This document shows positions 14,505 to 35,397 of a stretch of 36,149 nt of DNA, piece by piece. The translations under genes and the position numbers were made by a program. Under the pieces are notes generated by a model. That model ran no database searches. It saw only the letters and a list, made by a program, of their open reading frames with translations, and was not told where the DNA came from. Source of the stretch: Candidatus Firestoneibacteriota bacterium (lineage in GTDB: Bacteria; Oederibacteriota; D2-FULL-39-29). The number at the start of each line of letters is the position of its first letter. The first letter of the stretch is position 1. The stretch lies in the NCBI GenBank assembly GCA_903928075.1, contig CAIYPD010000124.1:1-36149 (forward strand), read 5' to 3'.

Positions 14505-14584
14505 TTTCGCAATGCTTAACTTCTCATTATTCATCTTGTTTTTCTTCTATCTATGGCTCTATTGGTCCATTATTCTATCCCGTT

Positions 14585-17130: not shown

Positions 17131-17158
17131 TTTCCCGTCCTCTCTTCTTTATTTTCTT

Positions 17159-18063: not shown

Positions 18064-19121
18064 TTATTCTGCCCCTGCAGTTTTTTAGGCTGATAAGAGC
18101 AGTAGGGTTCCTCGCTCATATAATTACCGTTGTTGGTCAGGCCTCTCGCCCGGCAGCCGCCGCAGACATTCACATATTCACAAACTCCGCATTTACCGGT
18201 GAGGAGTTTTCTGTTCCTTAACTCATTAAATACGGGGGAGTTTTCCCAGATATCTTTAAGCTTCTGTTTTCTGAGATTACCGGCCTTAGCCGGCAGGTAT
18301 CCGCAAGGGAGCACATCTGCGTTTGCGCCGATAAACATGACGGCTATCCCGCCAAGACAGCCTTTATTCAAATTCTCCATGCCGGGAGGCAGCTTAGGCA
18401 TTACAGGCATTTCTTTTCCCTGCCTCAAAATCCGGTTAAAGTGCGGCGCACAGGTGGCTTTAATATTTATTTTTGTCTTCTTTTTCTCCTCAATAAGCCA
18501 GCTTAAAACATTTTCATATTCTTCAGGCGTTAGCTCATCCTCTATCATTTCTTTGCCCCGGCCTGTCGGAACCAGCAGGAATATATGAAAGGCATCCGCC
18601 CCGAGTTTTTCTACCAGTTTTATTATCCCGGGGAGGTCCTTCATGTTTCTTTTTGTGACCGCCGAATTTATCTGTACCGGAAGTCCGGCTTTGATAATAT
18701 TCTCTATTCCTTTAATTGCCAGATCAAAAGCTCCGGCCCGGCCCCGGAAATTATCATGTATTTGTGCATTTGAGCCATCCAGGCTTATGCTTACCTTTAC
18801 TATTCCGGCTTCTTTTATCTTCTTTGCTGCCTCCGGAGTTACCATAGTGCCTTCGGTGGCCAGCAGGGTCCTGATTTTTTTACTCGAGTATTTTATAATA
18901 TCGTAAATGTCCGGCTTTAACAGGGGTTCCCCTCCGCTCAAAATCAGCAGGGGATTACAATAACCGGCAATATCGTCAATTATCCGCAATACCTCCGGCG
19001 TCGAAAGCTCATCCGGCCCGGGTTTTTCTGTCGCACACGCGCGGCAATGGGCGCACTTCAAATTACAGGCTTTAGTCAACTCCCAGAATATGAGATGCGG
19101 AAATTCTACTTTAATATCCAC
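18060..19121 (-). CDS. ahbD: Radical SAM heme synthase AhbD
   Basis: AhbD oxidatively decarboxylates the two propionates of Fe-coproporphyrin III to vinyl groups, the last step of the siroheme-dependent route to heme b. The 353-residue protein has the radical SAM triad CNLKCAHC (Cys19, Cys23, Cys26), the GGEPLL motif, and a SPASM-like C-terminal cysteine set ([17 protein letters not shown] and EPYCSYQ) for an auxiliary Fe-S cluster. The N-terminus [20 protein letters not shown] is typical of AhbD rather than AhbC. The start overlaps hemB by 16 bases. Confidence 0.88.
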
Positions 19122-20083
19122 TTTGATTTCGCCGCCTCTTTTGCATGATAGGTTATTATAATATCCGCTCCGGCTCTTTTAATACTTGTTAGAATTTCTA
19201 TGACAATTCCGGCCTCATCTATCCAGCCTTTTTGCGCTGCGGCTTTTACCATACTATATTCCCCGCTGACATTATAGGCTGCAAGCGGCACAAGATATTG
19301 TTCTTTTGCTCTTCTAATTATATCAAGATAGGAGAGTGCCGGCTTCACCATGACTATATCCGCTCCCTCTTCGATATCTTCCTGAATCTCCAGCAGCGCC
19401 TCATTGCTATTTGCATAGTTCATCTGATAAGATTTCCTGTCCCCGAACTTGGGGGCTGAAAAGGCAGCCTCTCTGAAGGGCCCGTAAAAGCTCGAGGAAT
19501 ATTTTGCCGCATAGCTCATAATGGGCAAATTCATAAAGCCTGAACCGTCCAAAGCTTCCCTTAGAGCTTGAATGCGCCCGTCCATCATATCGGAAGGCGC
19601 CACAATGTCTGCACCCGCCAGAGCATGAGAAACAGCAATATCGCCCAGTATTTTGAGTGTTTCGTCGTTTAGTATCTCGCCTTTCTCAATAATTCCGCAA
19701 TGGCCGTGAGAGGTATACTCGCAGAGGCAAATATCGGTAATAACCACCAGCTCGGGAAACCGTTTTTTTATCTCCCGTACCGCTTTCTGGACTATACCGT
19801 TCTCCGCAAAACTTCCTGAACCGATTTCATCTTTCTTATCCGGTATTCCAAACAATAATACGGCGGTTATCCCGGCTTTTCTTATCTCAGCAATTTCTAT
19901 CAGCACCTTATCAACAGAAAAATGAAAAACCCCCGGCATAGAATTAATCTCTTTTTTTACGCCCTTTCCCGTAACTATAAATAAAGGATAGACAAAATCC
20001 TTTACGGATAAAATAGTCTCCGAGACCAGATCTCTTACTTCTTTTTTCATTCTAAGTCTTCTTAATCTCTGAATAGGAAACAT
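19106..20083 (-). CDS. hemB: Porphobilinogen synthase (5-aminolevulinate dehydratase)
   Basis: Condenses two 5-aminolevulinate to porphobilinogen. The 325-residue protein carries both Schiff-base lysines, Lys195 ([14 protein letters not shown]) and Lys248 ([12 protein letters not shown]). The cysteines of a zinc-type active site are in [14 protein letters not shown] (Cys119, Cys121, Cys129), so this is a zinc-dependent form, not the Mg/Asp form. TGGAGGT precedes the ATG at 20083 and touches the ahbC stop. It is embedded between ahbC and ahbD. Confidence 0.97.
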
Positions 20084-20097
20084 TTATACCTCCAAAA

Positions 20098-21279
20098 CTA
20101 GACTCTTGTGCTAATTTCTTCTTCCGTCAAATAGCATGCCGGATCTTCCATCCAGGGATCATCATAGACGGCTTCCGCCCGGGCCCTGAAATTTCCGTTA
20201 CAGATATCAACCCAAACACACCGGCCGCACCGGCCTTTTAAAAGTTTTTTCCTGTCTTTTAAGCCTTTCATTATCGGATTAGAGGTATCATCCCAGATAT
20301 CCCCGAACTTCCTGTCTTTAATGTTTCCGAAGGTTTGATTTCTCCAGAACTGGTCGGGATGAACATTTCCGAAACAATCAATACACGCAATTCCGATACC
20401 GGTGCTATTACCGCCGGTATATTGCAGGAGCTTTAAAACTGACGCGGCCCGTTTCGGGTCTATTTTTCTTAATTTAAGATAGAGATACACGCCGTCGGTA
20501 TGATTATCTACGGTTAAAATATCTTTATTGTAACCTTTTTCCTGAAACTTAACTGTTCTCTCAATAATATAATCTACTATTTCTCTTTTTCTTTCAAGAG
20601 GCACATCCTCTTTAATCAGGTCCTTCCCCCGGCCGCTGTAGACCAGGTGATAGAAACAGGCCCTATTTATACCCTCATTTTCAATAAAGTTAAATATCTC
20701 GGGCAAGTCGTCAATATTTCCTTTTGTAAGTGTGAGCCTCAGGCCGCTTTTTAAGCCCGCTTTGACGCAATTTCTAAAACCTTCCCTGGCTTTTTCGAAA
20801 GCGCCCTTGACCCCGCGGAACTTATCATTGACCTCGCCTATCCCGTCAAGACTAATACCAATATAACTGAAATCGCTGTCTTTTAATTTTTTAGCAACTT
20901 CTGTGGTAATAAGCGTGCCGTTGGTGGAAAGAACCACCCGCATCCCCGCGGCTTTAGCAAAATCCGCCAACTCAAAAAGATCAGGGCGGATTACCGGTTC
21001 CCCGCCGGAAAATAAAAATACCGGGGCCTTATATTCCGCAAGTTCCGTTATCATTTTTTTTGCCTGCTCTGTGGTGAGTTCGTCCTTGTACCTTTTATCA
21101 TCGGCGTTGATATAGCAATGCACGCATTTCAGGTTGCACTTCTGCAGGGAGTTCCAGACTATTATCGGCTTCTTTACTCTTGCGAACTGCAATAGGTTCG
21201 CCGGCAAATTCTTATCCCCGTATCTTAAAACATCGCCTTCGGAGACCGTCCCGCAGTATAACTTGGATATTCCTATCAT
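20098..21279 (-). CDS. ahbC: Radical SAM Fe-coproporphyrin III synthase AhbC (12,18-didecarboxysiroheme deacetylase)
   Basis: AhbC removes the two acetate side chains of 12,18-didecarboxysiroheme, giving Fe-coproporphyrin III. The 393-residue protein begins MIGISKLYCGTVSEGDVLRY, a conserved AhbC N-terminus. It has CNLKCVHC (Cys48, Cys52, Cys55), GGEPVIRPDLF, and a C-terminal cysteine region CGRCVWVDICNGNFRARAEA with DPACY near the end. These separate it from AhbD. The start overlaps the cobA-hemD stop by 4 bases; hemB follows after 14 bases. Confidence 0.92.
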   Translation of the reverse strand: MIGISKLYCGTVSEGDVLRYGDKNLPANLLQFARVKKPIIVWNSLQKCNLKCVHCYINADDKRYKDELTTEQAKKMITELAEYKAPVFLFSGGEPVIRPDLFELADFAKAAGMRVVLSTNGTLITTEVAKKLKDSDFSYIGISLDGIGEVNDKFRGVKGAFEKAREGFRNCVKAGLKSGLRLTLTKGNIDDLPEIFNFIENEGINRACFYHLVYSGRGKDLIKEDVPLERKREIVDYIIERTVKFQEKGYNKDILTVDNHTDGVYLYLKLRKIDPKRAASVLKLLQYTGGNSTGIGIACIDCFGNVHPDQFWRNQTFGNIKDRKFGDIWDDTSNPIMKGLKDRKKLLKGRCGRCVWVDICNGNFRARAEAVYDDPWMEDPACYLTEEEISTRV

Positions 21280-22775
21280 AGTTCCTCGCAGATTGAATTA
21301 GCTAGATCCTTAATAGTGTAATTTTTTGGTTGTATATCCACCCGGTATTTTAATTGTTTCAGGGTCTTTGTAGTTATGGGCCCTATGCTGGCAATCCCGG
21401 CTCGCTTAAGATACTTTTTGTATTTAACCGCAAGCCTGTCAAAGTTAATAACCGTAGAAGAACTTGTAAAGGTAATACAATCAATTTTCTTATTTATTGC
21501 CGCTTTTACGAAGGCCCGGGGAATGTTTTTTTCCGCCGCCGTAACATATACCGGCAAATCGTCAACCAGTGCTTTATTTTTTCTTAATAAAAGAGGCAAA
21601 ATATCTCTTCCCTCTTTAGCCCGGGGCAAAAGTATCTTTTTGCCTGCAACCCTGCCCAGTACTTTGAAAAGGGCTTCGGCTTTATATTCCGCAGGCAGAT
21701 AAACCGCTTCTAAACCTTTATGGCTAAGGACGCTTGCAGTGACCGGGCCTATAGCATAGATTTCCTTTCCCTTTAAATCTTTAAGCTTACCTGCTTCCAA
21801 AAGCATATCAGTGAATATTGCCGCACCATTAACACTCGTAAATATTATTTTGTCATAGCTCTTTATGTTGGAAACGGCCTCTTTTATCCCTGCATCCGGC
21901 CTCAAAGCAATAATTTTAATAGTCGGAAATTCAATTACTTTTGCCCCGGCCGCTTCCAGTAACGCCGTAAAACTGCTGGCCTGAACGGCCGCTCTTGTAG
22001 TTACTATGGTTTTACCGGCAAGAGGAGTTTTTTCAAACCAACCCAATTTCTTTCTTAAATTTACCACCTTACCGGCCACAATTATAGCCGGCGCCGTGAT
22101 ACCTGCACTTTTTACTTTTTCACAGATATTTTCAAGAGTGCCCGTACAAACAAGCTGTTCTTTGGTGGTGGCCCTTTGAATAATGCCGACCGGCGTGGTT
22201 TTTGGTTTTCCGGCAGCAATAAACTTTTTTACAATACCGGAAAGATTGCTCATGCCCATTAATATTACAACCGTGTCTACACCCTGAATAAGTTTGGTCC
22301 AGTTTATGGAAGAACTCTTTTTATTTGCATCCTCGTGCCCCGTAACAAAGCAGACGGAGGACGCAAGTTTCCGGTGCGTTAAGGGAATCCCCGCGTAAGT
22401 CGGCCCCGCAATAGCCGAGGAGACACCCGGAATTACCTCGAACTTTATGCCGTGCTTTTTCAAGACCTCGAGTTCTTCAGCGCCCCGCCCGAAAATAATA
22501 GGGTCACCGCCTTTGAGCCGGATCACCATACCGTTAGTTTTAGCTTTTTTTACTATAAGTTCATTTATTTCTTTTTGTTTCATAACATGAAAGGTGCCGG
22601 ATTTTCCCGCGTAGATCAGTTCCGCCCCGCGTTTGGCGTATTTTAAAAACTTCTTGTTAACCAGATTATCATAAATAATAACATCCGCAGCTTTAATACA
22701 GTCAAGCCCTTTTAAGGTCAATAGGCCAAAATCTCCCGGCCCGGCCCCTACCAGAAATACTTTTCCGCTTTTCAT
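21276..22775 (-). CDS. cobA-hemD: Fused uroporphyrinogen-III C-methyltransferase / uroporphyrinogen-III synthase
   Basis: The 499-residue protein joins two steps. Residues 1 to about 245 are SUMT/CobA, which uses SAM to make precorrin-2 (VFLVGAGPGDFGLLTLKG, RLKGGDPIIFGRGAEE, AGPTYAGIPLTHR). Residues about 250-499 are HemD, which cyclises hydroxymethylbilane (KTIVTTRAAVQASSF, IIFTSVNGAAIF, CITFTSSSTVINF). This fusion channels uroporphyrinogen III towards siroheme, as expected where heme is made from siroheme. It overlaps hemC and ahbC by 4 bases each. No separate hemE, hemF/N, hemG or hemH is seen. Confidence 0.95.
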   Translation of the reverse strand: MKSGKVFLVGAGPGDFGLLTLKGLDCIKAADVIIYDNLVNKKFLKYAKRGAELIYAGKSGTFHVMKQKEINELIVKKAKTNGMVIRLKGGDPIIFGRGAEELEVLKKHGIKFEVIPGVSSAIAGPTYAGIPLTHRKLASSVCFVTGHEDANKKSSSINWTKLIQGVDTVVILMGMSNLSGIVKKFIAAGKPKTTPVGIIQRATTKEQLVCTGTLENICEKVKSAGITAPAIIVAGKVVNLRKKLGWFEKTPLAGKTIVTTRAAVQASSFTALLEAAGAKVIEFPTIKIIALRPDAGIKEAVSNIKSYDKIIFTSVNGAAIFTDMLLEAGKLKDLKGKEIYAIGPVTASVLSHKGLEAVYLPAEYKAEALFKVLGRVAGKKILLPRAKEGRDILPLLLRKNKALVDDLPVYVTAAEKNIPRAFVKAAINKKIDCITFTSSSTVINFDRLAVKYKKYLKRAGIASIGPITTKTLKQLKYRVDIQPKNYTIKDLANSICEEL

Positions 22776-23704
22776 GGTTTTTTCTCTGCTTTATTTTCAA
22801 TTATTTTTTTTGCGTTTTGCCTTATTAGTTTCTGCGCAAGCTTTTGACCAAGCGCGGCACTGTCTTCTACTAAACCTTCTTCTTTGTCCTTTATAGACAC
22901 TTTTCCGTCCGGGCTTGTTACCGAGGCCTCAATTACAAGTTTATTACCGTAAACCCCGGCATTTGCGCCTACAGGCACCTGGCAGCCGCCGCCGAGTTCT
23001 TTAAGCAGCGCTCTTTCGCAAAGCACCACCGCGGCCGAAATGTTGTCGTTTAAAACTGCGCAGATTGCCTTAATTTCTTCATCGCCTTTTCTTAGTTCTA
23101 TCCCCAGGGCGCCCTGCCCTACAGAAGGCAGTATAATTTCATAAGGAATTATTTCTGAGACCAGGCTCTCTAAACCCAGCCTCCTTATGCCTGCCAGCGC
23201 CAGTATTATCCCGTCATAAGCACCGCTTTCCAGCTTCTTAATTCTTGTATCCAGATTACCTCTTAAATCTTTTATCTGCAGATCCATTCTAAAATGCTTT
23301 AACTGCGCGATTCTGCGCAAACTACTCGTCCCGATAACGGCGCCTTTCTTCAATTCCGCAAGCTTCCCGCAGGTCTTAGATATTAAGATATCGTGATTAT
23401 CCTCCCTTTTGGTTATAGCTCCGAGCAAAAGAGCTCCGGCCAGGTCAACAGGGACATCTTTCATACTGTGGACCGCCAGATCAGCACTGCCGTTTAAAAG
23501 GGCTTCTTCTATTTCTTTTATGAACATCCCCTTGTCCGGTATCTTAGAAAGCGGCACATCGTTAATAATATCCCCGGTGGTTTTTACGATAAGTATCTCA
23601 AACACTGTTTGTTTAAAACTTTTCTCCAGTTCCGTTTTAATATGATTTGCCTGCACTAAGGCCAGTTTACTCCCGCGCGAAGCTATTACAATTTTATCTT
23701 TCAT
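22772..23704 (-). CDS. hemC: Hydroxymethylbilane synthase (porphobilinogen deaminase)
   Basis: Polymerises four porphobilinogens into hydroxymethylbilane. The 310-residue protein has the N-terminal IASRGSKLALVQAN motif, the catalytic Asp in VHSMKDVP (Asp83), the RRIAQLKHFRMDLQIKDLRG block, and Cys241 (ELGGGCQVPVGA) that carries the dipyrromethane cofactor. It lies 4 bases after the precorrin-2 dehydrogenase gene and overlaps cobA-hemD. Confidence 0.97.
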   Translation of the reverse strand: MKDKIVIASRGSKLALVQANHIKTELEKSFKQTVFEILIVKTTGDIINDVPLSKIPDKGMFIKEIEEALLNGSADLAVHSMKDVPVDLAGALLLGAITKREDNHDILISKTCGKLAELKKGAVIGTSSLRRIAQLKHFRMDLQIKDLRGNLDTRIKKLESGAYDGIILALAGIRRLGLESLVSEIIPYEIILPSVGQGALGIELRKGDEEIKAICAVLNDNISAAVVLCERALLKELGGGCQVPVGANAGVYGNKLVIEASVTSPDGKVSIKDKEEGLVEDSAALGQKLAQKLIRQNAKKIIENKAEKKP

Positions 23705-23708
23705 TTTA

Positions 23709-24338
23709 TCAGCTCAGTCCCTGTTCTTTTAACTTTTCGAGCACCGCATTTTCAATTTGCGGCCCGCTTAATTTTCTATTTTTTTTAAGAAACGCCTCGT
23801 TTATGATACTATTCCAGACTTTCTCTTTCTTTTTCTTGTCTAATTTTATTATCTTGCTTCTCATTTCCTTAAGCGGCTTAAGGAGACCTGCATATCCGCC
23901 GTACCTTTTCTCAATATCCTTTCTTAGATACTTTGCCAGAGAGGGGCTTACCCCGTTAGTCGATACCGTTATAGTCAAATCCCCGCGTTTTGCCATCGCC
24001 GGTAGTATAAAATCACAGAGTCCCGGGACATCCACAACATTAACCAGAACCTTTCTGCTTTTTGCTGCTGCCGATATTTTAGCGTTCAGCTCCATATTGT
24101 CCGTGGCAACGACGGCCAGGAATACATTCTTAAGATCCTTAAGCGAATACCTTTTTTTTATGTATTTAAACCGTTCATTCTTCTTTAGATTATTGAAATC
24201 CGGCACTATTTCCGGGCTTACTAGTTTTACCTTTGCACCAAAAGAGAGCAGAGCCCTGACCTTTCTATAGGCCACTTCTCCGCCGCCCACTACCAGGCAG
24301 GTTCTGCCTTTTAAATTAAGTTGAACCGGATAATACAT
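23709..24338 (-). CDS. Precorrin-2 dehydrogenase / sirohydrochlorin ferrochelatase (CysG N-terminal/Met8p type)
   Basis: Oxidises precorrin-2 to sirohydrochlorin with NAD+, and in many relatives also inserts Fe2+ to give siroheme. The 209-residue protein has the Rossmann loop VVGGGEVAYRK (residues 16-26), the catalytic-type Asp in VNVVDVPGLCDFILPA, and STNGVSPSLAKYLR. No other siroheme ferrochelatase (SirB or CbiX type) is visible, so this protein may do both steps, but chelatase activity cannot be proved from sequence. It sits between hemA and hemC. Confidence 0.92.
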   Translation of the reverse strand: MYYPVQLNLKGRTCLVVGGGEVAYRKVRALLSFGAKVKLVSPEIVPDFNNLKKNERFKYIKKRYSLKDLKNVFLAVVATDNMELNAKISAAAKSRKVLVNVVDVPGLCDFILPAMAKRGDLTITVSTNGVSPSLAKYLRKDIEKRYGGYAGLLKPLKEMRSKIIKLDKKKKEKVWNSIINEAFLKKNRKLSGPQIENAVLEKLKEQGLS

Positions 24339-24352
24339 TTTCTTTCTGGCCT

Positions 24353-25393
24353 CTAACTTGACTTTAACACAATTGAATTAAAATATTTTAAGAGATCTTC
24401 TTTTCCTTTCTCAGCAATCTCCTCGGCTTTACTAATACATTTTGCTCTTTCATCTTTGTTGTTATTAACGATCGACTCCAGATCATCGATGTTATACAGG
24501 TATACATTTTCAAGGTCATTAATCTTCGGGTCAATATTTCTCGGAACAGATATATCTATAAAAAAAAGCGGTTTTTGATTTCTCTTTTGCATGCACCTGT
24601 TGATTTCATCTCTTAATATAACAAAATGCGGCGCACCAGTAGAAACAATAACTATATCCGCTTTTAAAACATAGTCATAGAGGCTTTCATACTTTATGGC
24701 TTCGCCCCCGACCCGGGCAGCAAGCTCAACAGCATTTTCATAAGAACGGTTAGAAACAAATACCTTCTTGACCCCTTTTTTTATCAGATGCTTTGCGGTT
24801 AGTTCACTCATACTGCCGGCACCGACGATTACAATAGTTTTTTCTTCAAGTGTTTCAAATATTTTTTCGGCTAAATCCACGGCTATAGAACTTACCGAAA
24901 CCGGCAACCGGCCTATTTCGGTCTCGGTTCTTATCCTTTTTATAACCGCGAACATTTTCTGAAAAAGATTACCAAATATTTTTGCAACCGCACCATTCTG
25001 CCTCGCCCGGGCATAGGCTTCTTTTACCTGTCCGAATATCTGGGTCTCCCCGACAACCATTGAATCCAAACTCGCAGAAACCCGGATTATGTGCCTCAGC
25101 GCTTCACTGCCGACATAAGTATATAAATGTTGCTCAAAGAAGCTTCTATTTATCTTATGATAACCGCTGAAGAATTCCTTGATAGCCTCTTCCGCCTTCT
25201 CGAGTTCTTTTACCACAAGATACAATTCAACCCTGTTACAGGTTGAAAGTATTACCGCTTCCTTAACCATAGGCAAAGCTTTTAAGCCGGCAAGAGCGGC
25301 ATTCAACTCATTATCCTGAAATGCCAGCTTCTCTCTTATTTCCACAGGCGCATTTTTATGACTCAAGCCGACAATTATTATTTCCATAGTCAT
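24353..25393 (-). CDS. hemA: Glutamyl-tRNA reductase
   Basis: Reduces glutamyl-tRNA(Glu) to glutamate-1-semialdehyde, the first committed step of the C5 heme pathway. The 346-residue protein starts IIIVGLSHKNAPVEIREKLA, has the nucleophilic cysteine in STCNRVELY (Cys52) and the NADPH loop IVGAGSMSELTAKHL. The ATG at 25393 has AAGG eight bases upstream and follows the ccsA/hemX stop by 10 bases. An ATG two codons later is also possible; an upstream in-frame ATG at 25447 would add 18 residues inside the previous gene and is rejected. Regulation by heme, as in other HemA proteins, is plausible but unseen. Confidence 0.95.
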   Translation of the reverse strand: MTMEIIIVGLSHKNAPVEIREKLAFQDNELNAALAGLKALPMVKEAVILSTCNRVELYLVVKELEKAEEAIKEFFSGYHKINRSFFEQHLYTYVGSEALRHIIRVSASLDSMVVGETQIFGQVKEAYARARQNGAVAKIFGNLFQKMFAVIKRIRTETEIGRLPVSVSSIAVDLAEKIFETLEEKTIVIVGAGSMSELTAKHLIKKGVKKVFVSNRSYENAVELAARVGGEAIKYESLYDYVLKADIVIVSTGAPHFVILRDEINRCMQKRNQKPLFFIDISVPRNIDPKINDLENVYLYNIDDLESIVNNNKDERAKCISKAEEIAEKGKEDLLKYFNSIVLKSS

Positions 25394-25403
25394 CCGTTGT
25401 ACC

Positions 25404-26225
25404 TTATTTAATAAAGTTGTGAAAGCCTTTGAACAGGGTATTAACACCTAAATAGGTAAAGGCCATACTTAAAAATCCCGCTATCGAAAAAAATGCGCTT
25501 TTTTTTCCCCGCCAGCCCTTGAAAAACCTTAAATGGAGCCAGGAAAAGTATATCAAAGCGGTTATAAGCGCCCAGACTTCCTTTGGTGACCACATCCAGT
25601 AGGAGCCAAAAGCTTCCTTCTCCCAAACAGCCCCGGCTACTATTCCTATAGAAAGAAATACGAGACCTAAACTCAAAAGTTTATAATTAAGGCTGTCCAG
25701 CATAGCAAGCGAAGGCAGAGCATGGGAAACTTTCCCTATCCTGTGAGATTTAACCTGATGTTCCTGAATCAAATAAACAATGCTTATACCCAGGGACATA
25801 ACAAAATTTGCATAACTCAGAAAAACAAAAGGCAAATGCACACTAAACCAGCGGTTCCTGAAAATAAGTTTAACCGGTTCGATCTCTTTATACATACCCA
25901 GAGCAACAATAAAAATAAGCAGTGCAACCGGCAGAATAAATGATCCGAGAACGGTTATTTTATGCCTCAGCTGTATTAAAAGGATAATTAAAATAATGCA
26001 AAAAGATAAAAAAGAAAGCGTCTCATAGCTGCTTGTTAAAGGAAGATAATTGAGGATCATGCTTCGGTAAAGCAAAGAGCAAAGATGACTAAGCCCTCCC
26101 AGCCCCAGAACAATTAAGGAGCTATATTCAAAGAGAGGTGTTTTTCTGAAAAAATAAAGCCAGTAAGCCGCCAGGCTCAAGAGATATAAAAAAACCGTTG
26201 CATAAATTAGTATCAGTTCCATCAA
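25404..26225 (-). CDS. CcsA/HemX-like polytopic cytochrome c assembly protein
   Basis: A 273-residue protein with about eight membrane helices and the tryptophan-rich heme-handling signature (FGSYWMWSPKEVWALITALI, about residues 208-227), with His residues in FSVHLPF and WLHLRFF. It belongs to the CcsA/CcmC/HemX group. It is the second such protein here, the other being at 27689-28498. Its place directly before hemA matches HemX, which in Bacillus-type hem operons affects the level of glutamyl-tRNA reductase. It could instead be a second heme handler. The start overlaps the resB stop (ATGA). Confidence 0.88.
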   Translation of the reverse strand: MMELILIYATVFLYLLSLAAYWLYFFRKTPLFEYSSLIVLGLGGLSHLCSLLYRSMILNYLPLTSSYETLSFLSFCIILIILLIQLRHKITVLGSFILPVALLIFIVALGMYKEIEPVKLIFRNRWFSVHLPFVFLSYANFVMSLGISIVYLIQEHQVKSHRIGKVSHALPSLAMLDSLNYKLLSLGLVFLSIGIVAGAVWEKEAFGSYWMWSPKEVWALITALIYFSWLHLRFFKGWRGKKSAFFSIAGFLSMAFTYLGVNTLFKGFHNFIK

Positions 26226-27568
26226 CTTTTTGTCTTTACCTGATTGATAATCTTTTCGAATTCTTCTTCAAATGTGACCGGATCCCTGTTTGCCATACCG
26301 GCAATAATTATTTTATCCCCGCTGACTTTCACCCATATTCTGCGATAGTACATGAAGAGGGACAAGGCCAGCCCCAGAATAAGCAACGCAAATCCCGTAT
26401 AGACAAAGGGGACCCCGGGATCTTTCACAACCTGTAGTACGCTATAATTTGACTGCTCGTAATCCAGGCATTTGAAGAGAAAAGGTGTCTTCTTCTTTGA
26501 GTGAAACTCCGCCATGCCTAAAAAGACCCAGAATTCAATATCCTTTTCTTTTGCTTTAATGAGTTTAAGGCAGACAGCCGGATTATTAGACTCTGCTGAA
26601 GCAGAAAAAGGCTTCATATTTTCATCAAGCTTGAAATCAGGATAAAACAAGACGGGTTTTACAAAGTAGCCTGTCCCGGGCAGAGGTACCTGTTCATTAA
26701 GGCCTGCTTTTATTTTGGCTATCTCTTTACCCTGCAGGTTTTGCACGCTTAAATTGAACCTGGCACTCTCTTCATCCTGACCATAACTTGCTTGATAGAA
26801 ACTTATGCCTTTGTAGTTAATAGGGTGATTAACCTCAATGGTTCCCGGAGATTTTACAGCCCCATCGGTTATCTCAACCCGGCTTAAAAATGTTTTGGGT
26901 GTTTCCGGATTGTTTTTATAAAACTCAACCTGGAATTTATTTAGTTTAATATCGAAACCCAGCGGGATGGAAATATTTTTTTTATCTGAATTTACGATCG
27001 AAACGCTCTGGCCTTCTTTAAGATTAAGATGGCCTTTAAATCCAAAAAAATAACCCAAAAGAGCGCCGACAAGAACAAATAAAACGCTTACATGCGCAAT
27101 TAAGACTCCCCACCGTGAGAGGATACCTTTATGAAACAAGGTTGCATCTTTTCCTGTCATTTTTGAGAAACCGCCCTTTTCTAAAAGCTTTCCTACACTT
27201 GCCTCAGTTTCTTTTAAATCCGGCTGTATTTTAAACTCATGGTAGTATTTCAAATTTTTTAAATATTCATCAGAAAGGTCTACCGGCGGGGTTACCACTT
27301 GTTTATAGATAGAACTGAACCTGTCCAAGGAACAGGCGGCTATGCTCAAGCAAAAAACGGCTAATAATCCGATAAACCACCAGCTGTTATACAGGTCAAA
27401 CAAACCTATCAGGTTAAAAAGGCCGTAGAACGCACCGTAGGTTTCTTTAAGCTGTTCACTGTTGGTGTCCTGGAGAATAAAAGTCCCAACCAGAGAAGTC
27501 AGGGAGATAAGAATGAAGAACAAAATTGCCGTCTTTATTGATTTTAATTTATTCCAGATATTTCCCAT
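26222..27568 (-). CDS. resB: Cytochrome c biogenesis protein ResB/Ccs1 (system II)
   Basis: ResB/Ccs1 works with CcsA to deliver heme to apocytochromes and ligate it to CxxCH on the periplasmic side. The 448-residue protein has three N-terminal membrane helices (about residues 12-32, 57-78 and 154-174), a large periplasmic domain, and a fourth helix near residue 400. It contains the family segments IKTAILFFILISLTSLVGTF and ISFYQASYG. ATG 27568 is chosen because GGAGGAG lies six bases upstream. It lies between the two CcsA-like genes. Confidence 0.93.
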   Translation of the reverse strand: MGNIWNKLKSIKTAILFFILISLTSLVGTFILQDTNSEQLKETYGAFYGLFNLIGLFDLYNSWWFIGLLAVFCLSIAACSLDRFSSIYKQVVTPPVDLSDEYLKNLKYYHEFKIQPDLKETEASVGKLLEKGGFSKMTGKDATLFHKGILSRWGVLIAHVSVLFVLVGALLGYFFGFKGHLNLKEGQSVSIVNSDKKNISIPLGFDIKLNKFQVEFYKNNPETPKTFLSRVEITDGAVKSPGTIEVNHPINYKGISFYQASYGQDEESARFNLSVQNLQGKEIAKIKAGLNEQVPLPGTGYFVKPVLFYPDFKLDENMKPFSASAESNNPAVCLKLIKAKEKDIEFWVFLGMAEFHSKKKTPFLFKCLDYEQSNYSVLQVVKDPGVPFVYTGFALLILGLALSLFMYYRRIWVKVSGDKIIIAGMANRDPVTFEEEFEKIINQVKTKS

Positions 27569-27688
27569 TTTTGCTCCTCCCCAAAAAAGCGCTTCCCAGC
27601 CCCTGGCAAAATCCCATCGCAAATGGATATTTTCCCTGTTTTCCTTTCCTCACTTTCCCCACTTTATTAACTTCTTTCACTGCTCTTA

Positions 27689-28498
27689 CTATCTGCCGTA
27701 GCTGTGCAGGCCTGACAGCAGAAGATTGACACCCCAGTAGGTGAAGAGAACGCAGAGAAAGCCAAAACACGAAATATAGGCCAGTCTCTTTTCGCTCCAG
27801 CCTTTTACAAATCTTGCATGCAAATAGATAGCATAAATAATCCAGGTAATCAGGGACCAGGTCTCTTTTGGATCCCAGCTCCAGTAGGTACCCCAGGCGG
27901 AATTTGCCCAAATTGAACCAGAAATTATGCCGAAAGTTAAAAGCACGATGCCTATCAGGATAGATTTATGATTAAGATTTTCAAGTTTTCCTGTTGCAGG
28001 AAGTTTATCGGAGTTATTCTTCTGTTTTACCAAAAACATGATGCTCATTACGAAAGAGAAAGCAAAAAACGAATAGGCCAGCATGCAGGAAATGACATGT
28101 ACCTCCAGCCAAATACTCTGAAGCGCCGGTACCAGCGGAGTCATTTCTTTATAATGCGCCGGCAGTATCGAGGCAGCGCCTATGGCAAGAAACGCAAGCG
28201 GCACGGTGACCATTCCTATATTTTTGATCTTGTATTTCAATAAAATTAAGAAATAAACTAATACAATAGCCCAGGAAAAAAACACCGTGGACTCATATAA
28301 ATTGGTAAACGGCGCGTGTCCGACCTGTTTCATCCATAAGACCAGTCCCAGGGTATGGGGAATAAAACCTATAATGGTAAGTATAAAATTGAATTTTTCC
28401 AGTTTTTCATTTTTTAGCGTGATGTTTATCAAATAAAGTATAGAATTAACGAGATAAACTATGGCAACGAAAAAAAATAAATCGACTACATTTATCAT
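27689..28498 (-). CDS. ccsA: Cytochrome c biogenesis protein CcsA/CcsB (system II heme channel and ligase)
   Basis: The heme-exporting partner of ResB. The 269-residue protein has about eight membrane helices, the WWD-type motif AWGTYWSWDPKETWSLITW (about residues 201-219), and conserved external and internal histidines (IPHTLG, LEVHVISC, YLHARF) that bind heme. ATG 28498 is supported by AGGAGGAGG just upstream. It is the first gene of the heme/cytochrome run; resB follows after 120 bases. Some annotators name this gene ccsB. Confidence 0.93.
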   Translation of the reverse strand: MINVVDLFFFVAIVYLVNSILYLINITLKNEKLEKFNFILTIIGFIPHTLGLVLWMKQVGHAPFTNLYESTVFFSWAIVLVYFLILLKYKIKNIGMVTVPLAFLAIGAASILPAHYKEMTPLVPALQSIWLEVHVISCMLAYSFFAFSFVMSIMFLVKQKNNSDKLPATGKLENLNHKSILIGIVLLTFGIISGSIWANSAWGTYWSWDPKETWSLITWIIYAIYLHARFVKGWSEKRLAYISCFGFLCVLFTYWGVNLLLSGLHSYGR

Positions 28499-28529
28499 TT
28501 TTATCCTCCTCCTTTTCAATTACTGATTG

Positions 28530-28814: not shown

Positions 28815-31067
28815 TTAGAACTTGCAGGCTACACTGGCGCCTACTACACTGTAAACACCGTCATTTGCATCAAGATTTTGATCATCCCACTTTTTATACA
28901 TATAGTTAACCGATATGGTCGTATCCTTTATGATCTCGTAATTCAAAGTGAGAGACCCGGAATAACTTATGACATTGACCGGCATAACTTCAAGTATCTG
29001 GTCACCTGTCGTTACTATGTCGTCCATGTACAATACTTTTGTGGTGCCGTTCGTTTTTGTTATTCCTGCATTTGCATTAAGGCTTAACGCATTGGTAATG
29101 GCGACATAACCATTTACATTGCCAAAGTACGAGATATATTGAAGAGGGGCATTATCACGAAGAGCTATTGCCGTCGCAGTGGTAGTGGCAGTTCCAAAAT
29201 ACATATCCCCGTTGCTGCTTCCTTGTTCTATTCCTCCGGTAATTCCGGCGGAAAGTTTCGAATCCGCACTGCTCCAGCTCAAGCCGACAACTCCGTTGTC
29301 AATATCATTGGTATAATTACTGAAGCTTGAAGAAAGATTCTTTTCGCGTTTATAATCATAATCCGCCGTGAACTGCAGATTATCGACTATAGAAGCAGAG
29401 ACGGAAGCATTCAAATCATCTGAATAATCGGGAGATATTTCCGTGACAGCAACATTTGATTTCATATTCTTGTACTTAACATCTATGTCCAGCCAGCCGA
29501 AAGGAGTGATACTCGCTCCCGCTTTTATCGTGTTCGCAAAATTCTCAGCAGCCACTTTATTGTTAGTTGAATTAGCAAGTACAACTGTCGGGGCCAGGGC
29601 ACCCTGGTAAGTTACAGTACTGGTAAAGGTCTGCACAAAATTTTCTGCATTTGGCCTCTTGATATCGTCATATTTGTAACCCGCATAAAGCGTTACCCCT
29701 TTTAGGACACGATACTTTGCATTCAATTCTCCCGCAAATTCATCCCTGTTCATTGGAGTTTCAGGAACCACATACGAGGGGTTCGCATTGGAATTGGTTC
29801 CGTACTTGTAAGCAAGATATGCCGGGTCAGTTGTTGTAATATTTCTAACCTCGCCTTTGTTAAATTTTCCCGTTAAAGTAAGATCTTTAAGCGGCCGGTA
29901 AGATAAACCTGTTACCAGATTATAGGATGAAGACTTCGCATGGGACCACATATTTTCTTTATTCCTGCCGACACCGCTTAGATCTATGGCAAGATTATCA
30001 AGAAGGTCATATCTGGCTTTTCCCTTGTATTCCTGAGATTCTATCTCGGGGCCGGGGGTAAAATCACTGTAGTAATAGGTAGTGATCGTAGTGCCTCCAA
30101 GCCGGGTATAAGTGTCGGGAACGACCATATTATTGGCTTCTCTAAAGGCAGATATGGTCATTTCGATGTTTGCTGCACCCTGCTCACCAATTTTCGCATT
30201 TGCGTCAAAGGATATATCAGAAGCAGTCCGGTCGATATTCTTATGGGTCTCGATAATATTGGATGAACTTGCTATATAAACCGGTCCGTTATTTCTATCA
30301 TAGTAAACAAATTTTTGATTACCGGTTTCTATTTCCCCGCCGTAACTAATACCCAGCTTAAGCCAGCTCAAATTCGGCACATCGAGCATTAAACTTGCTT
30401 CATCCGAGGTCCTTCTTATGTAGTGGTCGATTCTGTCGTTAATTAAGATTCCGATATAAGTAACCGCTCCGTTTTGCGTTACGAAAAATTTATCATCATC
30501 CGCAAGTCGGTGAACCAGATAATCCCTGGAGACATTCAGTAATACACCCTCTGAACTGTACTCCAATTTCCCTGAAGCCTCGCCGACACCCAAAATGGTG
30601 TTTTTTATATTTTGCAATGACATTTCAAGAGAATCAGCGCCATCCAAAATCGAGATATTCAAACCATAATCAAATGTTTCGACTGAACTAAGGTTTCTGC
30701 CGTCATACTCGGCCACCCACTGCATTGAGCCGGCTATGCCATAAGGATAATAAACATTTATGCTTGGCTGTATAGATATACTTTTATCACTTTTTTTAAC
30801 CACTACCGGAGTTGGAGATTTCACTGCTGCTGTTTCTACAGGAACTACTGCCGGAACCGCTACAGGTACAACTACGGGTGCGGCCATGGGTGCCGGCACC
30901 TCAGGAACGACCACAGGCATTGCTGTGGGTGTTGCTGCATCGGGAACAATTACAGGTGCCGCTGCCGGAGTTGTTACCGCGGGAGCAGAAGTATCCTGCG
31001 CCGTAATAATTGAACTGCATAATAAAACAGCTAGAAGCGCTGCAAATAAATTTATCTTTTCTGTCAT
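28815..31067 (-). CDS. Large outer-membrane beta-barrel, probable porin sheath of a decaheme conduit (MtrB/PioB-like)
   Basis: A 750-residue protein with a signal peptide (cut near SSIITAQ), a Pro/Val/Ala-rich low-complexity linker at about residues 25-90 (repeated APVVVP-like units), then about 650 residues of alternating beta-strand sequence rich in Y, N, D and G. It ends in Phe, as outer-membrane barrels do. It lies 18 bases after the decaheme cytochrome gene. In MtrA/MtrB, PioA/PioB and MtoA/MtoB pairs the barrel surrounds the cytochrome and insulates it across the membrane. The N-terminal CxxC of Shewanella MtrB is absent. Assignment rests on architecture and gene pairing; an unrelated porin is less likely. 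Confidence 0.78.
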   Translation of the reverse strand: MTEKINLFAALLAVLLCSSIITAQDTSAPAVTTPAAAPVIVPDAATPTAMPVVVPEVPAPMAAPVVVPVAVPAVVPVETAAVKSPTPVVVKKSDKSISIQPSINVYYPYGIAGSMQWVAEYDGRNLSSVETFDYGLNISILDGADSLEMSLQNIKNTILGVGEASGKLEYSSEGVLLNVSRDYLVHRLADDDKFFVTQNGAVTYIGILINDRIDHYIRRTSDEASLMLDVPNLSWLKLGISYGGEIETGNQKFVYYDRNNGPVYIASSSNIIETHKNIDRTASDISFDANAKIGEQGAANIEMTISAFREANNMVVPDTYTRLGGTTITTYYYSDFTPGPEIESQEYKGKARYDLLDNLAIDLSGVGRNKENMWSHAKSSSYNLVTGLSYRPLKDLTLTGKFNKGEVRNITTTDPAYLAYKYGTNSNANPSYVVPETPMNRDEFAGELNAKYRVLKGVTLYAGYKYDDIKRPNAENFVQTFTSTVTYQGALAPTVVLANSTNNKVAAENFANTIKAGASITPFGWLDIDVKYKNMKSNVAVTEISPDYSDDLNASVSASIVDNLQFTADYDYKREKNLSSSFSNYTNDIDNGVVGLSWSSADSKLSAGITGGIEQGSSNGDMYFGTATTTATAIALRDNAPLQYISYFGNVNGYVAITNALSLNANAGITKTNGTTKVLYMDDIVTTGDQILEVMPVNVISYSGSLTLNYEIIKDTTISVNYMYKKWDDQNLDANDGVYSVVGASVACKF

Positions 31068-31085: not shown

Positions 31086-31970
31086 TTACCGTGTAAACCT
31101 GCTGGTTATATCAGAACCATGGATCATTACATGACACCGAGTACATTCAGTGTACCGTCTTTCTATGTTATTTACGGTGTTGAAGGCTGTCTTAGTCGCG
31201 TCATGCGGTCCTTTATGGCACCGGACACAAAGCATTGAGGTCTGCTGTTTCAGCAATTTATTGTTAATGGAACCATGGGGTTTGTGACAGGTCCCGCAGT
31301 CATCCTCAACAGGCGGATGACCAAATACAAAAGGCCCCGCTTTTTCAGCATGGCATTTTGCGCAGAGTTCATTAACGGATTCGGCTTTCAGATTTCCTTT
31401 ATCGCCTCCATGGGGGTTATGACAATTTTCACAGGAAATCTTTCCTTCCACGATAGGATGATGCGAGGGAAGATTATTTTCCATCTTCACTTTATTATGG
31501 CACTTGTAACAAAGTTCCGGGGTCTTTTTTACAAACATCTTTTTCGTAACCCCGCCATGCGTATCATGGCAGCTTGCACAACTAAGATCTTTGCTAGCAT
31601 GGGTACTGGATTTCCACTGCACAAGATTTTTTTGCGTGTGACAGCTTAAGCATATTTTTGAAACATCCTCGGGGGCTAATTTTTTCGGATTAACTATCTT
31701 GGCCTTATCGCCTCCCGCGGCAATATGCTCTACTCCCGAGCCGTGACAGGCCTCACAGCCTTTCTTGGCGTCAGGAGCTTTATTGTCCAGAAAGGTTTTA
31801 TAATGAATTGAGCTCTTGTATTCTTTAAATTCTTTGTCATGGCATTCTTTACAAGCCTCTGCCCCGGCATACTTCTTTGTGTCTTCGGAATATGCATTTG
31901 CCGTGAAACCAAGCAAAAATAATAACCCGACAGACCAGACAAAAAGTGCTTTTAAATCTGACTTAAACAT
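31086..31970 (-). CDS. Decaheme c-type cytochrome of the MtrA/PioA/DmsE family
   Basis: A 294-residue periplasmic cytochrome with a signal peptide (cut near residue 26) and exactly ten CxxCH motifs, from CKECH at Cys40 to CTRCH near the C-terminus. The spacing and pairs such as SCENCHNPHG, CGTCHKPHG and CASCHDTHG are those of the DmsE/MtrA family, which threads into an outer-membrane barrel to carry electrons across it. ATG 31970 has GGGGAGGAAAGG upstream; the longer frame would need a TTG start. The barrel gene follows. Upstream lie a receiver-domain remnant and a sigma-54 promoter. No extracellular MtrC/OmcA-like cytochrome is encoded next to it. Confidence 0.92.
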   Translation of the reverse strand: MFKSDLKALFVWSVGLLFLLGFTANAYSEDTKKYAGAEACKECHDKEFKEYKSSIHYKTFLDNKAPDAKKGCEACHGSGVEHIAAGGDKAKIVNPKKLAPEDVSKICLSCHTQKNLVQWKSSTHASKDLSCASCHDTHGGVTKKMFVKKTPELCYKCHNKVKMENNLPSHHPIVEGKISCENCHNPHGGDKGNLKAESVNELCAKCHAEKAGPFVFGHPPVEDDCGTCHKPHGSINNKLLKQQTSMLCVRCHKGPHDATKTAFNTVNNIERRYTECTRCHVMIHGSDITSRFTR

Positions 31971-32028: not shown

Positions 32029-32259
32029 TTATCTTTTTTTTAACAACTCCTTTACTTTTTTCAGCAACTCTTCCGGCTGTGCCGGCTTATTTATATACCC
32101 GTCTACAGGAATATTTCTGCTGCCGTCCTCTGTTATAAACTCCCTTCCCTGCACTTTGGTGCTTATCGATGTTATCATAAGAATCGGTATTGCTGCCAGT
32201 TTTTTATTCTTTTTTAACCGTACCGCCAGATCGGAGCCTCCGTAAGCACTACTTTCATT
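32029..32259 (-). pseudogene. Truncated response-regulator receiver domain (C-terminal half only)
   Basis: The minus strand keeps an open frame of 76 codons without a start codon. It reads AVRLKKNKKLAAIPILMITS (beta-4 with the Thr/Ser switch) and ends GYINKPAQPEELLKKVKELL, with the Lys-Pro of beta-5 and the last helix. The beta-1 acidic pair and the phospho-acceptor Asp are missing. An in-frame TAA at 32262 closes it upstream; a different frame further up (…LPDFGRRDKENQIAGKMK) could be an earlier part shifted by a frameshift. It lies in the predicted leader between the sigma-54 promoter and the decaheme gene. Confidence 0.75.
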
Positions 32260-32363: not shown

Positions 32364-32379
32364 GCAAAAAGCGTGCCAA
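32364..32379 (-). promoter_or_regulatory. Sigma-54 promoter (-24/-12) for the decaheme/porin operon
   Basis: The minus strand reads TTGGCACG, CTTT, TTGC followed by T. This matches the sigma-54 consensus TGGCACG-N4-TTGC[AT] at every conserved position, with exactly ten bases between the GG (32377-32376) and the GC (32365-32364). Transcription would start near 32352. It lies about 90 bases downstream of the stop of a sigma-54 activator gene and upstream of the decaheme gene with no other complete gene between. Confidence 0.88.
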
Positions 32380-32424
32380 GAAAAATATTCAAGTAAAATA
32401 AGGATTTTTAACAAGCGAACAATG

Positions 32425-32454
32425 AGAAAACATTACATAAAAGTAATGTTTTCT
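32425..32454. promoter_or_regulatory. Perfect dyad: probable enhancer site for the sigma-54 activator
   Basis: AGAAAACATTAC (32425-32436) and GTAATGTTTTCT (32443-32454) are exact inverted repeats with a 6-base spacer. A third half site GTAATGTTTAC begins at 32461 and runs into the end of the activator gene. The dyad centre is about 88 bases upstream of the predicted start of the sigma-54 transcript, a usual place for enhancer-binding proteins. Two-fold symmetry suits the Fis-type helix-turn-helix dimer of the neighbouring regulator. Confidence 0.75.
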
Positions 32455-32467
32455 AAAAAAGTAATGT

Positions 32468-33808
32468 TTACTCTATATCGAAGTCTTTTATCTTTTCCCA
32501 TAAGGTTTTCGGGGTTATTCCGAGTATTTCAGCTGCTTTCTTTTTTACGCCTGCAGAATGTTCCAGTGCCCTAATAATGTGCTCTTTTTCTGTTTCGCGG
32601 AGAGCCTTCTTCAAAGAAACAGCTTTCCAGGCATCCTTCTTCCTGAAATGCTCGGGCAATAAATCAGGCGTTATGGTCTCCTTTTCAGAAAGACAAACCA
32701 TACTTTCTATAAGATTTTCAAGTTCCCGGACATTCCCCGGCCAGGCATATTTAATCAGCAAAAGCATTGCCTCGGGGGATATTTTAACGGCTTTTTTTGT
32801 GTTTTTATTGTAGTACGCAAGAAAATGGTTTACCAGAAGCGGAATATCCGAAGGCCTCTCCCGTAAGGCCGGCAATTTTACAAGAACCACATTTAGCCGG
32901 TAATAGAGGTCCTCCCGGAAAGTTCCTTCAAGGATCTTCTTCTTTAAATCTGTTTTTGTGGCAGAGATGACCCGGACATCGGCTTTAAGGGTTTCAGAAC
33001 TTCCCACTCTTTCAAATTCTCTCTCCTGAAGTACCCGGAGTAATTTTACCTGGACGGCAGGACTTAAATCGTCAATATCATCAAGAAAGATGGTCCCCTT
33101 ATTTGCCAGTTCAAACCGGCCTATCCGCATTTTAACGGCGTCTGAAAAAGCGCCTTTTTCATGCCCGAAGAGCTCGCTTTCAAGAAGCGTCTCCGGCAGA
33201 GCCGAACAATTCACCTTAACCAGCGGGCCGAATTTTCTCTCGCTTAAAGCATGAATTGCGTCCGCAATAAGTTCTTTTCCCGTACCGCTTTCGCCTTCGA
33301 TCATTATCGTTGTGTTTCCGGGAGAAGCTATTTCAATAGTTTTATATATTTTCTGCATCAGCGGATTTTTTCCGACAATGTTATTTAATGAATTCCTTTC
33401 TCCGAGCCGTTCCTTAAGCAGCAGATTCTCTTTCCTTAAAGAACTCAATTCAAGGGCATTTTTTATGATTTGGGAAAGTTCTTCAAACAGGAACGGTTTT
33501 CCTATGTAATCAAAAGCGCCGAGTTTCATCGCCGAGACCGCAGTCTCCACGGTCCCGTAAGCCGTCATCATAATACAGGGGACATCGGAAACGGTATTTT
33601 TTATCCTCTTAAGCAGAGTAACCCCGTCCATCTTGGGAAGTTTAATGTCCATAAGTACCAGGTCAAAACCGCCTTCCTTGAATTTTGCAAGTGCCTGCAA
33701 ACCATCGGTCGCCCCCGTTACTTCATAACCTTCGCGGGTAAGATTGTCCCTGAGCATATTTAACATTAGATCGTCGTCTTCCACAACCAGCAGTTTAATC
33801 TTTGGCAT
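32468..33808 (-). CDS. Sigma-54-dependent response regulator (NtrC/AtoC family)
   Basis: A 446-residue enhancer-binding protein. The receiver domain (1-120) has Glu10-Asp11-Asp12, phospho-acceptor Asp54 and Lys104. The AAA+ domain (about 145-375) has Walker A GESGTGKE (172-179) and a sigma-54 contact loop GAFSDA at 219-224, a variant of GAFTGA. The C-terminal Fis-type helix-turn-helix ends at 446 (KKAAEILGITPKTLWEKIK). Its start overlaps the histidine-kinase stop by 14 bases, so the two form a pair. The nearest downstream target is the sigma-54 promoter at 32364-32379. Confidence 0.95.
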   Translation of the reverse strand: MPKIKLLVVEDDDLMLNMLRDNLTREGYEVTGATDGLQALAKFKEGGFDLVLMDIKLPKMDGVTLLKRIKNTVSDVPCIMMTAYGTVETAVSAMKLGAFDYIGKPFLFEELSQIIKNALELSSLRKENLLLKERLGERNSLNNIVGKNPLMQKIYKTIEIASPGNTTIMIEGESGTGKELIADAIHALSERKFGPLVKVNCSALPETLLESELFGHEKGAFSDAVKMRIGRFELANKGTIFLDDIDDLSPAVQVKLLRVLQEREFERVGSSETLKADVRVISATKTDLKKKILEGTFREDLYYRLNVVLVKLPALRERPSDIPLLVNHFLAYYNKNTKKAVKISPEAMLLLIKYAWPGNVRELENLIESMVCLSEKETITPDLLPEHFRKKDAWKAVSLKKALRETEKEHIIRALEHSAGVKKKAAEILGITPKTLWEKIKDFDIE

Positions 33809-34928
33809 TTTTTGTTTTCCTTAAAACCGGAAGCGTCACCGTAACCATAGTACCCGCGCTTTCCGGATTATCAGCTATCTCCAGCGTCCCCTGTGAAATC
33901 TGAATAATATTATAGCTTATAAAGAGTCCGAGGCCCACCCCTTCGCCCACTTCTTTAGTCGTGTAAAAAGGCGAAAAGATCTTGTCCCGGTCTTTTTGTT
34001 CTATCCCCTTACCGGTGTCAGAAAAATTCATACTAATTTTATTATTCTTAAGCGAAGAAGTTATAGTGAGCTGTTTTTTTGCCGTACCGGACATTGCTTC
34101 AACGGCATTTTTAATTATATTCGTAAAAACCTGCTGTATCTGGGACGAACTCGTATAAACGGCCGGCAGTCCCTCTTTCAAGTCAACTTTCAATATAACT
34201 TTTTCCTCCTGTATTTTGTGCTGCATAAATTCCAGGATCTCCCTCAGTACTTTGTTTAGATCCACAGGCTCCGTAACTCTTCTTCCCGAATATAAAAGAA
34301 TCTGCTTTATTATATTTTCTATCCGGAAAAGTCCTTTTAAACTTAACTCCAGGTATTTTCGGTTATCTCCGGTTATGCCCGGGTTAGCCAGCACGGTCCT
34401 GAGATAATTGACAATTGCCCCGAGTGGATTGTTTATTTCATGTGCAATACCGGCGGAAAACCGGCTTAGAGCAGCAACCCTTGAGGCTTGATGCAGTTTC
34501 TCCTGGACTTCTTCAAGCTCGGTAGTTCTTTCCAGAACATTTTTTTCAAGATTATTTCTTTCTTTTGTTATTTCCCGGCTCTTCTTATCAAGTTTTTTTA
34601 ACAGGTGAATACTCGAGATCTTAAATTCATTCAGCTTCCGTTCTGTTTTCTTTAACTCGGCATGCTCAAGTTCCAATTTCTCTCTGACGCCGATAAATTG
34701 CGAGGATAAAAGCCGGAGGGTCTTCTGCCAGGTCTCCGTATTCAGATTATTCTTGAAGACTTCACAGGCCATACAAGCCTCAACCTTTTCCAGCCATACT
34801 CCGCCCGGCTCCTCATTACAGAAGGTACCGCTTGTAAGCCAGCACTCAAGGTCGGAGGACAAAAAAGCAGGGCATTCTGTCTTTTTGCATTTAAAATACT
34901 CGTGACAACGGACGGGCTTATTATTCAT
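33795..34928 (-). CDS. Soluble sensor histidine kinase with N-terminal cysteine cluster
   Basis: A 377-residue kinase without membrane helices. Residues 1-60 hold seven cysteines (Cys8, 14, 19, 29, 37, 52 and 55) in the pattern RCHEYFKCKKTECPAF, ECW and CMACEVFK. This recalls the Cys/Trp-rich modules found in signalling proteins of anaerobes, likely a metal or Fe-S site. A coiled coil (about 85-150) leads to the HisKA motif AGIAHEINNPLGAIVNYL with His163, then the HATPase domain (NIIKNAVEAM, DTGKGI, GVGLGLFISYNII). It would phosphorylate the overlapping sigma-54 regulator in response to an intracellular redox or metal cue. Start is 4 bases after the split-barrel gene. Confidence 0.92.
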   Translation of the reverse strand: MNNKPVRCHEYFKCKKTECPAFLSSDLECWLTSGTFCNEEPGGVWLEKVEACMACEVFKNNLNTETWQKTLRLLSSQFIGVREKLELEHAELKKTERKLNEFKISSIHLLKKLDKKSREITKERNNLEKNVLERTTELEEVQEKLHQASRVAALSRFSAGIAHEINNPLGAIVNYLRTVLANPGITGDNRKYLELSLKGLFRIENIIKQILLYSGRRVTEPVDLNKVLREILEFMQHKIQEEKVILKVDLKEGLPAVYTSSSQIQQVFTNIIKNAVEAMSGTAKKQLTITSSLKNNKISMNFSDTGKGIEQKDRDKIFSPFYTTKEVGEGVGLGLFISYNIIQISQGTLEIADNPESAGTMVTVTLPVLRKTKNAKD

Positions 34929-34932: not shown

Positions 34933-35397
34933 TCAAAACCTGAGAATTGTCGGAGGAAGCTGGTCCAGCACTTCGCTATAAATCCGGTATCTTACAAATT
35001 TTGGGGTGAGTTTTACAAAATCAAACTGAGCGGGAATTCCTGCTTCGAGGGCTACATCTGCAAAAGGATTACGGCCTTTTAACATCAAAAGAGCGGTATT
35101 AATTTCTTTTTGAAGAGTAAGAGTTTGCGCCTGTCCGTTTATTTCCACTTCCCAGGACCTGTCGAAAGGATCTTCCAGAGCGTAAACAAGCATAGACAGG
35201 CCTGTTTCTATATTTACCTGTTCGATCATAGGGCTTCTTTTAAGGGACATAAGGTAGCAGACAAAACGGTCATCAACACCGTAATACATAACCCTTGATC
35301 TTAAAAGATTTTCTTTGCCGTCTTTTGTACTGACAACAGCTATCTCTTTTTCCCTCAAGTGCAAAAGTATCTCTTTTTCATCATGAATTTTAGACAT
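34933..35397 (-). CDS. Pyridoxamine 5'-phosphate oxidase-like FMN split-barrel protein
   Basis: A 154-residue protein with the flavin split-barrel pattern: IAVVSTKDGKENLLRSRVMYY, then DDRFVCYLMSLKRSPMIEQV and SWEVEINGQAQTLT, and a C-terminal KFVRYRIYSEVL. Members bind FMN or F420/heme and act as oxidoreductases or flavin sensors. The substrate cannot be told here. It is the first gene of the operon with the histidine kinase and sigma-54 regulator, so a role in redox sensing is possible but inferred from position only. The start is preceded by AGAGGA. Confidence 0.75.
   Translation of the reverse strand: MSKIHDEKEILLHLREKEIAVVSTKDGKENLLRSRVMYYGVDDRFVCYLMSLKRSPMIEQVNIETGLSMLVYALEDPFDRSWEVEINGQAQTLTLQKEINTALLMLKGRNPFADVALEAGIPAQFDFVKLTPKFVRYRIYSEVLDQLPPTILRF

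Follow-up and report, generated by a model that had tools for sequence, protein, structure and literature searches.

The window (the whole 36,149-nt stretch of DNA analyzed here) seems to hold the output promoter of an ancestral sigma-54 circuit that would once have controlled flavin-based electron export and was, with a probability of roughly two in three, rewired to a multiheme conduit at the head of a heme/cytochrome island. Judging by the sequence comparisons presented below, flavin-based electron export was most likely the ancestral output of the circuit, the multiheme conduit is most likely its present output in the window genome, and, as part of this best reading, the conduit would have taken over as an output specific to this lineage, separated from the promoter by a broken gene. 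The replacement of the cargo is argued from the gene distribution, the missing flavin operon and the gene remnant taken together.

The sigma-54 (-24/-12) promoter, TGGCACGCTTTTTGC (32364..32378, minus strand), carries the GG and GC doublets, is the lone exact match to TGGCAC-N5-TTGC found by a pattern search of the 36,149-nt window (at 32378..32364 (-)), has a counterpart in the same place in five relatives, and is predicted to start transcription near 32352. A consensus match by itself was, however, rejected as proof of a promoter, because exact boxes are just as frequent genome-wide as the reversed control pattern (four versus four, i.e., no enrichment); the consensus alone thus proves little, and it is the position and the conservation that carry the case. 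As to the other three exact boxes of the genome, two lie within coding sequence and one ~490 bp before groEL; the latter (TTGGCACGGTTATTGCT at G000:C112:21204-21218, L004:1501-1515) is, apart from the window promoter, the genome's sole exact sigma-54 box in an intergenic position and suggests sigma-54 control of a chaperonin operon. RpoN is encoded in the window genome (404.8 bits versus a cut-off of 277).

Above the box lies an exact 12-bp inverted repeat, AGAAAACATTAC/GTAATGTTTTCT (32425-32436/32443-32454, no strand assigned), the center of which is ~61 nt, and the near edge 47 nt, above the -24 T. No second copy of the dyad exists in the genome, where the closest other match to its core differs at 3 positions, and its conserved core, CATTAC (32448..32443) N6 GTAATG (32436..32431), constitutes an inner pair of half-sites. 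A third, conserved enhancer half-site, CATTAC (32461..32466, minus strand, i.e., 32466..32461), which was absent from the initial annotation of this DNA, is found 18 bp upstream of the first half-site of the dyad and at -87/-88 from the -24 T in 6/6 Firestonebacteria loci, the order in the window being CATTAC(-88)/CATTAC(-70)/GTAATG(-58) relative to the -24 T. Among 200,000 Markov-shuffled upstream regions per genome, for the three genomes tried, none contained this three-half-site pattern.

The comparison set consisted of the five other Candidatus Firestonebacteria genomes (G004-G008) that have orthologues of both the regulator and the kinase, with nine genomes of the order in all. Full-length kinase orthologues are present there at 50-62% identity (the next matches drop to about 34%), the gene order is every time split-barrel gene, kinase, regulator, and the regulator gene is followed by the box in 5/5 relatives, as TGGCA[CT]GyTTnTTGC, with the half-sites CATTAC, [AG]TTAC and GTAATG at 87-88, 69-70 and 57-58 nt before the -24 T, a spacing within 1 nt of that seen in the window. 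Between the window and the relatives, 26-28 of the 28 motif columns are identical, versus 19-31 of the 62 other columns. Because the spacing is fixed to 1 nt and the identity of the motif columns is far above that of the flanks, there is strong evidence that the box, the enhancer and the adjacent NtrC-type activator/kinase belong to one putative cognate NtrC/sigma-54 unit under selection. A search of the nine genomes of the order for the enhancer plus TGGCA retrieved the promoter place in five of the six carriers of the two-component system (reversed control: 0); the sixth carrier, G005, lay outside the matches of that search, one of its half-sites reading GTTAC, and G001 and G006 gave two additional matches that look like chance.

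The NtrC-family response regulator (32468..33808, minus strand; orthologues at 60-67% identity) comprises, according to Pfam, a receiver, an AAA+ sigma-54 interaction domain and a Fis-type HTH. Its sigma-54 contact loop reads GAFSDA versus the canonical GAFTGA, and in the orthologues the loop is GAFTDA, GSFTGA, GAFTNA, GSFTNA or GAFTGA, although the sigma-54 boxes are conserved. The histidine kinase (33795..34928, minus strand) is soluble-looking and has an N-terminal two-CW cysteine-rich domain, in which seven cysteines are invariant across 10 orthologues; it probably senses redox state or a metal in the cytoplasm, and the poor predicted structure of the two-CW domain (mean pLDDT of 51) was used for no inference. 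The conserved three-gene regulatory cassette opens with a PNPOx-like split-barrel flavoprotein gene (34933..35397, minus strand), named so by its syntenic orthologue in L054, which matches PNPOx_N; the window protein itself (34933-35397) had no match in the family profile search. Such a gene precedes the two-CW kinase in every orthologous locus with upstream sequence, and its product may be part of the sensing.

The initial annotation had described a consensus -24/-12 box on the minus strand, a 12-bp perfect inverted repeat above it and, directly upstream, an NtrC-type sigma-54 activator paired with a cysteine-rich kinase to which both elements were tied. All of this stands, as the box is exact, unique in the window and conserved in five relatives, the repeat is exact and unique in the genome, the domains are as described, and the association is conserved in the same five relatives. 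The GG/GC elements, whose loss in close relatives the annotation had named as evidence against itself, are conserved there, but beside different genes.

What the promoter heads in 5/5 relatives is a flavin electron-transfer operon without a decaheme cytochrome. This operon starts with NusG_II (EetA-like), followed by an EetB-like ECF-S/ECF-T fusion and, in the four relatives whose contig continues, by an unassigned 431-aa protein (a probable barrel), ApbE, an FMN-binding protein, a kinase and a response regulator (the contig of G004 ends before apbE, and its operon is seen only as far as EetA and EetB). The two-component system and EetB occur together in 5/5 relatives; EetA, EetB, ApbE and the FMN-binding protein share one cluster in G005-G008 and L076, and no Ndh2-type NADH dehydrogenase was seen in the neighborhoods of the relatives' operon. 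A similar arrangement of the circuit and flavin genes exists in MAGs filed as Armatimonadetes and Cloacimonadota, L076 and L077 among them, with the L076 operon including an FAD synthetase. In L076 (labelled Armatimonadetes bin.262), a second box, TGGCATAATTATTGC, with ATTAC/GTAAT half-sites precedes rnfC-rnfD (L076:9680-10014), which suggests that the regulon might include the Rnf complex there, and L080 and L081 have only boxes with two mismatches. Neither box nor dyad was found at the EetB loci of G018 and G009, meaning that, outside the order, flavin genes also occur unaccompanied by this circuit, nor at the second ApbE loci of G005 and G008 or at the ApbE locus of G001.

The complete gene behind the promoter in the window encodes a DmsE/MtrA-type decaheme c-type cytochrome (31086..31970, minus strand; TIGR03508, 259 bits versus a cut-off of 192) with 10 CXXCH, the start of which is an ATG at 31970 behind GGGGAGGAAAGG (the longest ORF opens with a TTG at 31988), and the single PDB match of which by sequence is 6R2Q chain A (MtrA, E=5e-47; the molecule name in that file is wrong). 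It is accompanied by an MtrB/PioB-type outer-membrane barrel (28815..31067, minus strand; PF11854, 30.2 bits versus 23), whose model is poor (mean pLDDT of 48) and whose top Foldseek match in the PDB, 6R2Q_B (MtrB, E=2.6e-12), was counted as support only jointly with the Pfam match. These profile and structural matches support an MtrAB/DmsE-type outer-membrane conduit, which no MtrC-like gene adjoins. Behind the conduit, profile searches delineated a co-directional heme/cytochrome island (8947..28519, minus strand) with CcsA/ResB, HemA, a Met8-type dehydrogenase, HemC, UroM-HemD, AhbC/D-like radical SAM, HemB, NirD/L-like, multiheme cytochrome, FeS and NrfD subunit, and HemL genes, all genes from the conduit down to about 8.9 kb sharing one direction; a 23-kb one-direction cluster (8947-32000) thereby unites genes for the conduit, for cytochrome c maturation, for a heme pathway that includes siroheme-type steps and for multiheme/NrfD subunits. 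The decaheme cytochrome and barrel reported downstream in the initial annotation are borne out (DmsE family, PF11854, MtrA and MtrB matches). From the self-contained circuit drawn there, the sigma-54 unit can be kept, being conserved and with RpoN encoded, but the conduit as its own target is not supported in the form drawn, as the promoter heads a flavin operon in the relatives and the decaheme cytochrome, as well as HemB and ResB, was not found in the eight other genomes of the order. EetB and ApbE, in turn, were not found in the window genome.

Some 380 nt, in which hairpins and a broken gene are found, separate the promoter from the cytochrome. The broken gene, unmentioned in the initial annotation, is a single-domain response-regulator remnant (32032..32241, minus strand), of which only the C-terminal half is present, with no in-frame start codon and with the phosphoacceptor region missing. 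The remnant aligns with the regulator of the relatives' operon at scores of 128-144 versus 54-110 for hydrogenase-linked regulators, and this resemblance suggests a derivation from the former, the piece being too short for firm ancestry. An inverted repeat, TTTAACCGG/CCGGTTTAAA, is located at 31990-32015, just before the ribosome-binding site of the decaheme gene; it is no terminator by pattern and is possibly an operator or RNA element. An intact promoter beside a decayed gene suggests that the promoter is still in use, although a recent event would look alike.

Put together, the window site would serve as the output promoter of a two-component, sigma-54 circuit passed on by vertical descent, in which the two-CW kinase, upon a cytoplasmic cue (perhaps redox, via the seven invariant cysteines), would phosphorylate the NtrC-type regulator. 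The latter would bind the three half-sites of the CATTAC type, which lie 58-88 bp above the -24 element, and activate the RpoN polymerase, with transcription starting at about 32352 and the transcript presumably running through the remnant into the conduit. The flavin operon would have been lost except for the response-regulator piece, the conduit and a private heme/cytochrome island now standing behind the promoter. Points that weigh against this reading are the single MAG in which circuit and conduit meet, the stretch between promoter and cytochrome, the non-canonical GAFSDA loop of the regulator, the shortness of the remnant and the conduits of other genomes, which have no sigma-54 site next to them.

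Other explanations of the junction can be conceived, one being that the box and enhancer are a relic of the lost flavin operon, driving only the broken fragment, with the conduit expressed from elsewhere. The relatives' operon is indeed missing from the window genome, a decayed gene does follow the promoter, and no sigma-54 site was found beside the conduit pair in other genomes of the phylum and beyond. We nevertheless regard such a relic as unlikely, given that the box and the three half-sites are intact while the identity of the surrounding bases is close to random (a loss that happened recently could also account for the intact elements), that no minus-strand terminator or sigma-70-like site is recognizable in 31900-32520, and that the genes down to about 8.9 kb are all co-directional. 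A further reading, in which the dyad forms an RNA hairpin or terminator that belongs to the regulator gene and the box matches by chance, is hardly credible: the dyad does sit just beyond the regulator stop codon, and exact boxes show no genome-wide enrichment, but it has no U-tract after it, was not scored as a terminator, and in the relatives the half-site letters and the distance to the box are kept, but not the outer stem, so that the terminator scan and the conservation pattern led to the rejection of this candidate.

As the junction of the two-component system and the conduit is seen in one MAG only, and the island marker genes are absent from the other genomes of the order, a Firestonebacteria two-component locus wrongly joined to a foreign heme/cytochrome contig during assembly has to be considered as well. 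This is quite improbable, since in GC and tetranucleotide signature the island matches the other contigs of the genome (0.753 versus 0.746-0.780), the listed contamination is 0.73%, and the decaheme-barrel piece alone, at 0.423, lies at the low end of, but within, size-matched pieces of the same genome (the lowest being 0.411). Very little credence, likewise, is given to the flavin arrangement being the derived one and the decaheme conduit the ancestral target: one genome alone gives no direction of change, but the flavin arrangement is present in five Firestonebacteria, with a similar one in MAGs of other phyla, versus one genome for the decaheme arrangement, and the remnant resembles the flavin-operon regulator.

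The reading of an ancestral flavin-export circuit re-plumbed onto a conduit would mean that one conserved circuit links flavin-based export and MtrAB-type conduits, little being known of what switches conduits on, and would make the locus an apparent natural experiment, one chemistry of electron export having given way to another under the same control. It is arguably a little better than an even bet that the two-CW kinase/NtrC/sigma-54 circuit is a general-purpose electron-export controller, whose output was exchanged from flavin to an MtrAB-type conduit and heme island with the enhancer geometry unchanged; two-CW kinases of this type would then be predicted to sense when electrons have to be disposed of. 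As its regulator, kinase, enhancer and promoter are all defined, the circuit could be reconstituted in a laboratory host and the signal sought there.

In the open-access literature searched, neither flavin-based export nor MtrAB-type conduits were found described as being under two-component control through sigma-54. In BccR-CbcBA of G. sulfurreducens (Joshi 2021), an NtrC-type sigma-54 activator reportedly adjoins an electron-transfer cytochrome operon, the cytochrome there being, unlike in the window, an inner-membrane one. In Desulfovibrio, the sigma-54 activator gene DVU3142 lies, as in the window, beside a multiheme-cytochrome operon, ohcBAC, its predicted target with conserved promoter and binding sites, and the site persists in D. 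alaskensis despite the loss of ohcA and ohcC (PMC4641369). Unlike in the window, however, ohcBAC specifies an octaheme complex, described as a periplasmic cytochrome with membrane partners and no outer-membrane conduit, the activator is divergently transcribed (PMC4641369), and no flavin-to-heme swap of the kind proposed here is involved. The RpoN regulon of Geobacter sulfurreducens (PilR-pilA) has a promoter consensus, TTGGCACGGTTTTTGCT, that is nearly identical to the window box, and activator genes there likewise adjoin their targets, but a cognate sigma-54 activator beside a conduit is not shown there (PMC2725144); next to conduit clusters of Geobacter, the regulators that are named comprise OrfR, which was left intact at omcBC, and members of the LysR or TetR family (PMC6148476). 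The relatives' operon is similar to the flavin-based EET cluster EetA/EetB/FmnB of Listeria, in which EetB is the flavin-export ECF-S subunit, in having an EetA-like NusG_II, an EetB-like ECF-S (fused to ECF-T), ApbE and an FMN-binding protein (PMC9973259), and differs from it in the Gram-negative setting and the 431-aa probable barrel protein. The window pair itself falls below the cut-offs of the GSU2203-GSU2204 families (NF041028, 276 versus 325 bits; NF041027, 53 versus 350 bits) and, being a decaheme cytochrome plus barrel with MtrA and MtrB of 6R2Q as the best structural matches, resembles the Shewanella MtrAB/DmsE-type conduits.
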